Below are positions 25,173 to 49,457 of a stretch of DNA of 64,000 nucleotides, piece after piece. Source of the stretch: Cellvibrio sp. pealriver (lineage in GTDB: Bacteria > Pseudomonadota > Gammaproteobacteria > Pseudomonadales > Cellvibrionaceae); contig NZ_KQ236688.1 in NCBI RefSeq assembly GCF_001183545.1, positions 3,050,395 to 3,114,394 of the forward strand. The letters are read 5' to 3'. The notes under the pieces were generated by a model, which was given only the letters and a program-made list of their open reading frames with translations, did not search any database and was not told the origin of the DNA. The position numbers and the translations under genes are program-made. Numbering within the stretch: position 1 is the stretch's first letter; each line of letters opens with the position of its first letter.

Positions 25173-25211
25173 AGTGCTAGTGCTATTGAGTAATTGAACG
25201 TGCCATTGGCA

Positions 25212-25307
25212 CTTGCGAATACCTCTGCAGGACACGCCGTAAACCCATCCATGGGGGCTTGTCTTCGACTTCCCTGTCTCAGACAGTCCTGCAGAGGTAT
25301 TCGCAAG
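25212..25307. repeat. Variable-arm palindromic repeat, copy 1
   Basis: Two perfectly complementary 22-bp arms (25212-25233 and 25286-25307) flank a 52-bp core that starts ACGCCGTAAACCCATCC and contains the small hairpin CCCA-TCCA-TGGG. Copies 2 (45601-45706) and 3 (49352-49457) share the core but have unrelated arms. Located between the typA terminator and the TauE gene. No coding capacity. Confidence 0.9.
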
Positions 25308-25341
25308 CGCCTTGAAATATTTTCGCAAGTAGATTTTACGT

Positions 25342-45583: not shown

Positions 45584-45927
45584 ATCCAATTTTTGTGCGT
45601 GATGGACTCCGGTATTCCCTCCGGGACACGCCGTAAATACATCCGTGTAGGCTCGACTGCGGCATCCATGCCGCAGACGGTCCCGGATGAAATACCGGAA
45701 TCCATCTGCAAGATCATCACGCAGAATTAGAAACGTAAATAAAACAGTATCTGGAATACTCGGGATCAATCAAAGAATTGACTCGTCAAAATAACCAGCA
45801 ACAAGCTGGAATCTACTAGAAGCAAGTTACGGCAAGTTCCATTCGTATCGTCAACCACATTAATACTGTTATTGATGGAAACTTGTATTGCCGAAAATTT
45901 GCCACGACTACAGAGGGCGACAATAAA
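45584..45927. other. Intergenic region uxaA - pntAA
   Basis: 344 bases. The first part is variable-arm palindrome copy 2. The rest has no gene that I can support and presumably carries the pntAA promoter; no -35/-10 pair stands out. Confidence 0.7.
45601..45706. repeat. Variable-arm palindromic repeat, copy 2
   Basis: Arms 45601-45627 and 45680-45706 pair over 24 of 27 positions. The 52-bp core starts ACGCCGTAAATACATCC, has the small hairpin TACA-TCCG-TGTA and a second, perfect hairpin CTGCGGCAT/ATGCCGCAG (45657-45676). A further outer match TGCGTGATG (45596-45604) pairs with 45715-45723 across a 12-bp insertion. Confidence 0.88.
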
Positions 45928-49351: not shown

Positions 49352-49457
49352 GTTTGCTGTTAAGGTTTTTGTTTCGAAAACGCATCAACCCATCCGTGGG
49401 GCTCACATTCGCCATCCATGGCTCAAGTGTTTCGAAACAAAAACCTTAACAGCAAAC
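49352..49457. repeat. Variable-arm palindromic repeat, copy 3
   Basis: Two perfectly complementary 28-bp arms (49352-49379 and 49430-49457) flank a 50-bp core containing ACGCATCAACCCATCCG, small hairpin CCCA-TCCG-TGGG and second hairpin GCCA-TCCA-TGGC. Arms differ completely from copies 1 and 2. Placed between convergent VOC and kdgK genes. Confidence 0.92.

Follow-up and report, generated by a model that had tools for sequence, protein, structure and literature searches.

Three palindromes in a Cellvibrio genome are probable copies of an old, structured repeat related to TwoAYGGAY, YPAL and Ysr224

Our analysis suggests that three palindromes of the window, the whole stretch of 64,000 nucleotides from Cellvibrio sp. 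pealriver that was analysed, are probably copies of an old, dispersed and structured repeat whose stem evolves by compensatory change and which is related to TwoAYGGAY, YPAL and Ysr224. We suppose that the arms of each palindrome are the element's own stem, with a sequence that shifts by compensatory mutation. Such arms would change fast but together, so that old copies would look unrelated while each still pairs with itself, and they would be inherited with the element when it spreads. A sequence-only reading of the window had offered three explanations, i.e. insertion of a core into existing palindromes, copying of the second arm from the first, or selection for an RNA whose apex is fixed and whose stem is free, and this three-way explanation is partly supported by the data below.

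In an inverted-repeat search of the window (arms of at least 15 nt, at most 150 nt apart) the three copies were the longest inverted repeats among the best 25 of 28. Moreover, a search of the window with covariance model R1, which was built from 71 copies including window copies 1 and 2 but not copy 3, matched these three copies only. Hairpins P2 and P3 of copy 1 were assigned from the window sequence together with the structure given by the alignment, model R1 and RNAalifold. Names of neighbouring genes come from reading their translations. The features are:

25208..25311, minus strand: element copy 1 (R1 99.9 bits at 25210-25309, minus strand; RF01731 32.5 bits)
25286..25311, minus strand: right arm of copy 1, the 5' strand of stem P1 (inverted-repeat search)
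25208..25233, minus strand: left arm of copy 1, the 3' strand of stem P1 (inverted-repeat search; 25/26 pairs)
25260..25285, minus strand: hairpin P2 of copy 1, loop 25270-25275 reading AGGGAA on the minus strand (ANGGAN type)
25244..25255, minus strand: apex of hairpin P3 of copy 1, loop 25247-25252 reading AUGGAU on the minus strand
Neighbours of copy 1: TypA/BipA-like GTPase gene (plus strand) and TSUP-like permease gene (plus strand)
45601..45706, minus strand: element copy 2 (R1 104.1 bits; RF01731 33.9 bits; RF02770 26.5 bits on the plus strand)
45601-45627/45680-45706: arms of copy 2, 24/27 pairs (inverted-repeat search)
45664-45669 and 45641-45646, minus strand: loops of copy 2, P2 AUGGAU and P3 ACGGAU
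Neighbours of copy 2: UxaA-like gene (plus strand) and PntA-like gene (plus strand)
49352..49457, minus strand: element copy 3, with divergent core (R1 67.0 bits, E 1.7e-16; RF01731 34.8 bits)
49352-49379/49430-49457: arms of copy 3, 28/28 pairs (inverted-repeat search)
49414-49419 and 49392-49397, minus strand: loops of copy 3, P2 AUGGAU and P3 ACGGAU
Neighbours of copy 3: VOC-family gene (plus strand) and convergent KdgK-like gene (minus strand)

The three elements with self-paired arms described by the sequence-only reading are real, with 22/22 pairs in the inner part of copy 1 (25/26 when extended), 24/27 in copy 2 and 28/28 in copy 3, and 50-52 nt lie between the arms in all three. The shared core claimed for them holds for copies 1 and 2, whereas that of copy 3 is divergent, being missed by both the exact and the one-mismatch core pattern and found by R1 at 67 bits. 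The position just after gene ends holds for copies 2 and 3, 17 and 35 nt past a stop codon, but not for copy 1, which lies 94 nt past a stop codon, beyond a terminator-like hairpin, and 30 nt ahead of the next start. Elsewhere in the window, a perfect 18-bp inverted repeat with a 2-nt loop and A-/T-rich ends (1684-1721) is probably a two-way terminator.

The minus strand of the element folds as a clover-like three-way junction, in which the arms form stem P1 of ~27 bp and two hairpins, P2 and P3, carry ANGGAN loops. RNAalifold, unaided, gave the same three-way junction, with P3 as 3 bp plus an outer GCC/GGC helix. In the 71-copy alignment, from which rows L058 and L060 were left out, covariation was 0.959, compared with 0.212 after shuffling and at most 0.183 after sliding. 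Standard pairs filled 94.9% of pair cells, a percentage inflated by picking the 71 rows at an arm score of at least 14, while the type of mismatch is unaffected since all mismatches were scored alike. All 24 modelled P1 pairs show two-sided changes in these copies, the outer 20 of them with 4-6 standard pair types each, and the closing pair of P2 (C-G in 49 rows, U-A in 22) covaries across all 71. P1 length is mostly 25-29 bp (quartiles in an arm-length survey of copies). The P2 loop, which the search pattern does not include, reads ANGGAN in 91 of 116 copies (shuffled mean 8.6, maximum 17), and GGA is kept in 9 of the 12 distinct non-ANGGAN P2 loops among the matches listed; the P3 loop is ANGGAN in 71/71, as the search pattern dictates. 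Sequence is what is conserved in the junction and loops, and pairing is what is conserved in the stems; arm sequences drift via compensatory pairs.

The mismatches left in the arms reveal which strand must fold. Read on the plus strand, they were A·C in 122 cases, G·T in 9, C·T in 63 and C·C in 19, with T·T (5), G·A (4) and A·A (3) being rarer; 116 of 150 copies were used, and the 34 left out had an arm score below 12 or odd spacing. Plus-strand A·C, G·T and C·T are G·U, A·C and G·A on the minus strand. The 122:9 asymmetry of A·C over G·T (p=2e-26) recurs copy by copy, with A·C in excess in 68, the reverse in 6 and equality in 42. Among the 71 alignment rows, minus-strand P1 mismatches were G·U 65, G·A 30 and G·G 9, and A·C, C·U, U·U and A·A 3 each. 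Strand-symmetric mutation would yield equal A·C and G·T at any base composition, since G-C and A-T pairs go either way; thus the minus strand must pair. The ratio of A·C to G·T was 28:1 with both genes along the folded strand (22 copies), 31:1 with both against it (30), 24:5 and 12:2 in the two mixed classes, with convergent or divergent neighbours (20 and 17 copies), 25:0 inside a crude ORF (24) and 2:0 at a contig edge (3). The pairing constraint acts on one strand, whichever way the neighbouring genes run. We rejected the idea that selection acts on a read-through mRNA, since copies sense and antisense to both neighbours have the same asymmetry. No orientation bias to genes was seen in a survey of 136 copies (27 within a crude ORF, 4 without a flank), the 105 with both flanking ORFs splitting into 31, 25, 20 and 29. 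Likewise, no replichore bias was found in 76 copies of S. maltophilia E301 (17+/19- and 23+/17-, taking the record start as origin). The folded strand is the more stable one in 61 of 71 copies.

The family is widely dispersed. The core with at most one mismatch occurs in 36 of 76 relatives, and the window genome holds 15 copies by the exact pattern and 19 when one mismatch is allowed. In public genomes the core pattern gave at least 118 stretches, with Stenotrophomonas, Xanthomonas, Marinobacter, Microbulbifer, Rheinheimera, Methylotuvimicrobium and also Yersinia similis among the matches listed. At two mismatches or fewer, copies numbered 525 in M. buryatense, 154 in Marinimicrobium agarilyticum, 69 in Y. 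similis, and 58, 76 and 94 in three S. maltophilia genomes. R1 (71 copies) matched 77 of 369 genomes of the class, with at most 11 candidates scored per genome, so that copy counts per genome are lower bounds. A search of E. coli with one Sodalis copy gave 21-base matches only. As copies were collected by the core pattern, this choice partly imposes the conservation seen in the core and P3 loop, but not that in arms and P2 loop. Self-complementarity of arms, as previously claimed, is beyond chance: the own-arm pairing score was 10 or more in 126 of 150 distinct copies from many genomes, compared with 0.7% of 3000 cross-paired arms. When left arms were compared copy against copy, nearly all pairs were no closer than shuffles, with a small surplus of related arms (0.67% of pairs scoring 10 vs 0.07% shuffled).

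At orthologous loci the arms change and remain paired. One locus in the genus of S. maltophilia (G076) has 22 distinct arm alleles in 35 filled rows, and at a window-genus locus the arms differ in 8/8 rows; rows with fewer than 20/27 paired (e.g. L257, L357) were left out of the ortholog sets. In allele pairs differing at nine positions or fewer, from five sets, 594 cells had changed on both sides and were still Watson-Crick, 25 had changed on both sides with another outcome, and one-sided change was seen in 197; alleles are shared between pairs, so that events are not independent, and 429 of the 594 come from one locus. For example, L374 and L376 are two compensated pairs apart within a shared 26, and L247 and L253 also two, one a transversion. 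A small set from a neighbour element (5 alleles) had 10 one-sided and no two-sided changes. Transversions make up 253 of the 594 compensated changes, many for a route through G·U, which counts against our main reading and would allow part of the change to be templated. Across species, pairing of the arms is preserved at fixed loci. Taken together, strong covariation, compensatory changes between orthologs and wobble tolerance on one strand support selection for a structure with fixed apex and free stem. Thus, this part of the earlier proposal stands as to structure, but its wording as an RNA does not follow, because single-stranded DNA would give the same signature.

Whether arms travel with the element was seen most directly outside the window's genus. 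In Y. similis, arms are near-identical to the letter in 20/20 copies fetched (chosen by exact core), and in M. buryatense the arms are common to 7/7 copies chosen by model score, all of them within a miniature transposon. The latter copies (L435-L441, G391) all lie within a ~160-bp repeat with near-complementary ends (GCAATTCCCA... / ...TGGGAATTGC); judging from these repeat ends, the element spreads in M. buryatense on the miniature transposon, and similar spread has been reported for YPAL in the available part of PMC2229807. Near-alike arms were also noted by eye in some other copies, e.g. L008, L009, L011, L139 and L146. Hence the earlier statement that arms have no mutual similarity is correct, by eye, for the three window copies but not for the family. 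Among 63 copies of the window-genus group, a set holding some orthologs, arm similarity correlated with P2 similarity (Mantel r 0.18, 0/2000), mean arm identity being 0.47 where the P2 halves were more than 0.9 identical and 0.35 where less than 0.5. The correlation persisted without ortholog sets (r 0.21, 56 copies, 3/2000) and was not significant within the window's own genome (r 0.03, 17 copies, 830/2000) or within genome G011 (r 0.12, 18 copies, 268/2000). The missing link within genomes makes our main reading less sure and a copying origin of arms slightly likelier. Fixed loci, comparisons between genomes and two species (Y. similis and M. buryatense) show arms being inherited; for spread within the window's genus we infer this. 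As further observations on arrangement, 21/21 copy pairs within 600 bp in S. maltophilia E301 (G078) are inverted with cores facing, at a spacing of 227-426 bp; inverted pairs in the window's genus occur in both orders. In Y. similis, L225, L228, L231 and L232 have the same terminator-like hairpin on both flanks of the copy, which is consistent with long target duplications at dyads.

Sites with a core-less palindrome or a single arm bear on how the arms arose. At the L025 locus only one arm is present in G109, G131, G139 and G141, with a ~3-bp repeat at the junction (by eye), and R1 finds no element there in these species. On a tree of 42 rows built from flanking coding sequence, the four one-arm rows need 4 changes among 36 filled rows (3-4 in bootstraps), 2 of which are forced by well-supported branches. 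A midpoint root places the element in both deep clades and its absence in two outer species. Sixteen forks of the tree are weak, there is recombination at the loci (chimeras L299, L307), and rows L363, L364 and L365, whose anchors are missing, were left out. G103, G125 and G114, also outside the tree, have neither element nor arms at this locus by reading and by R1. The L074 locus has a core-less palindrome (L312), one-arm remnants (L300, L306, L308, L311) and fusions. One-arm sites without a core look like late losses, and after the L074 locus and the tree we dropped them as pre-insertion targets. At the copy-1 locus, compared in 18 relatives, G019 has the element reversed and with other arms, G006 has a core-less palindrome, and R1 finds the element in G019 alone. 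Other events at these loci include the split in G137 (L277, L278), where the halves of the L025 locus lie on separate contigs, each of which passes into foreign sequence at the element, a pattern suggestive of a rearrangement through it. L303 carries an insertion within element E1, which we take to be an IS3-family element. Some copies of the G076 genus (L279, L305, L308, L311 and L313) carry a further palindromic stretch of ~80 bp, inserted into the region of P2. A different hairpin, with a loop of the GGGAT type (GCCAGGGATGGC), lies at the copy-1 locus of G018 (L198) and may be another kind of ANGGAN element.

If palindromes already in place, e.g. terminators, had received the core at their tip, the core-less palindrome of G006, which matches the outer arms of the G019 element, would be a target, and YPAL targets span or adjoin dyad symmetry in the available part of PMC2229807. 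Deletion between short repeats yields core-less palindromes as well, as in L312, and arm length is narrow (quartiles 25-29). Usual terminator stems are shorter than this. Together with the arms common to copies in Y. similis and in M. buryatense, these points make insertion very improbable and remove it as a general cause. Snap-back or template-switch synthesis, in which the first arm would be the template for making the second or restoring its perfect match, no selection being involved, fares somewhat better, since it is favoured by the one-arm sites at two loci (L025 and L074), by the many two-sided transversions and by arm similarity not tied to P2 similarity within single genomes; the last point keeps some room for insertion too. 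Copying would treat both strands alike or follow the replication strand, and would not produce a 122:9 asymmetry following the element's own strand. Moreover, the one-arm junctions lie, by eye, at ~3-bp direct repeats, as in slippage deletions, and the one-arm rows are nested among filled rows on the tree. Copying is therefore improbable, and as a general cause it is not supported, given this nesting and the shared arms of the two species.

A more serious alternative, which we still regard as rather unlikely, is that the minus strand folds as single-stranded DNA during replication, transposition or cruciform extrusion and is a substrate of a hairpin-reading recombinase or transposase, like REP or IS200/IS605 ends; the fold would then be kept for mobility or DNA binding and not as RNA. 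G·T, G·A and G·G are also the best-tolerated mismatches in DNA. The folded strand is the more stable one under DNA parameters in 60/71 copies, nothing ties it to gene direction, close pairs in S. maltophilia E301 are always inverted with cores facing, and the M. buryatense copies lie within a miniature transposon. Against this, arms are kept paired at unmoved loci across many species, for which mobility alone does not account, and the 76 copies of S. maltophilia E301 have no replichore bias.

The probable kinship of our structured repeat with named families is based on loops, junction and strand. TwoAYGGAY (RF01731) lies on the same strand, with window copies matching over model positions 1-168, and both have two hairpins with ANGGAN/AYGGAY loops on one strand and G-A pairs in a stem. 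The external stem of TwoAYGGAY is poorly conserved according to the part of PMC4333381 available, as is P1 here with its several pair types per outer pair. Unlike the Rfam hairpin, P3 of the window family is much shorter. At the gathering cut-off of 43 bits RF01731 had no match in the whole window or in 18 further loci, and its scores of 32.5-34.8 bits in the three copies are all below this value, which counts against our main reading. With short stretches, microRNA families scored at about this level too, also below threshold, which can happen with any long hairpin; hence the RF01731 score alone is weak, and the likeness rests on loops and junction. TwoAYGGAY is listed in PMC2864571, PMC11701678 and PMC7657543, and rated in the accessible text of the first as probably RNA and probably not cis-regulatory.

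For Ysr224 (RF02770), 20/20 Y. similis copies score 124-134 bits, above its cut-off of 70, and the same 20/20 match R1 on the opposite strand at 64.9-71.5 bits, with the fold in common. Window copy 2 reaches only 26.5 bits with RF02770, copies 1 and 3 have no listed match, and the window arms differ, whereas the 20 fetched Yersinia copies have near-identical arms. Ysr224 is treated as an abundant or multi-copy sRNA in the available parts of PMC9029176 and PMC12112432. Compared by description and not by sequence, the Y. similis element is probably YPAL / RU-2, given length, genus and copy number; YPAL is a mobile intergenic element of ~168 bp in the part of PMC2229807 available, with target duplications of 3-26 bp as its criterion. 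Unlike this miniature transposon, 97 copies of the window family have no conserved ends outside the arms. YPAL is also mentioned in the accessible parts of PMC2267715, PMC2847712, PMC2759123, PMC3733652 and PMC5193452. Like REP/BIME, our elements are intergenic palindromes often found as inverted pairs, but REP is a tagged hairpin of 20-40 bp (PMC3733652, available part) and ours a three-way junction of ~105 bp with a variable stem, and neither GTAG nor CGTC is present as an invariant tag in the window-family alignment. In the literature searched, the exact core words had no match and no paper joined TwoAYGGAY with YPAL or Ysr224, a link that De Gregorio 2006 (YPAL) could hold. No named element had been recognised from the sequence, and the core was found to lie largely in a described family (TwoAYGGAY, Ysr224, YPAL), a result that the sequence-only reading itself had listed as contradicting it.

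An ANGGAN hexaloop with apical GGA is the consensus of CsrA/RsmA sites. Both P2 and P3 of the window family have GGA in an apical ANGGAN loop. This agrees with the proposal, in the available part of PMC4333381, that TwoAYGGAY binds CsrA. We therefore put forward, tentatively, that the folded strand may be an RNA made independently of its neighbours that would bind CsrA/RsmA-type regulators by its two GGA loops. Several results count against this: Ysr224, the annotated sRNA, is the strand opposite to the predicted folded strand; gene-orientation bias is absent; and CsrA occurs in 73 of 76 relatives, whether the element is present or not, with no match in G002 (nine copies, 85% complete), so that co-occurrence with CsrA is uninformative. 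Furthermore, no position within 70 nt of the stem exceeds 0.25 bit in 97 copies, except one base beside the stem, and this missing flank conservation argues against an autonomous sRNA.

A more speculative and rather doubtful extension is that the tens to hundreds of mobile double-GGA hairpins in gammaproteobacterial genomes form a transposon-borne CsrA/RsmA sponge acting in trans, of which YPAL, Ysr224 and TwoAYGGAY would be pieces; the one-strand fold would then be kept locus by locus, whatever the direction of neighbouring genes. By our reading, two Rfam entries from opposite strands belong to one family, to which a transposon-like repeat of Yersinia probably belongs too, and A·C vs G·T mismatches in a palindrome provide a simple test for the strand that has to fold. 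Repeats thought to be passive would tune a global regulator if the loops bind CsrA.
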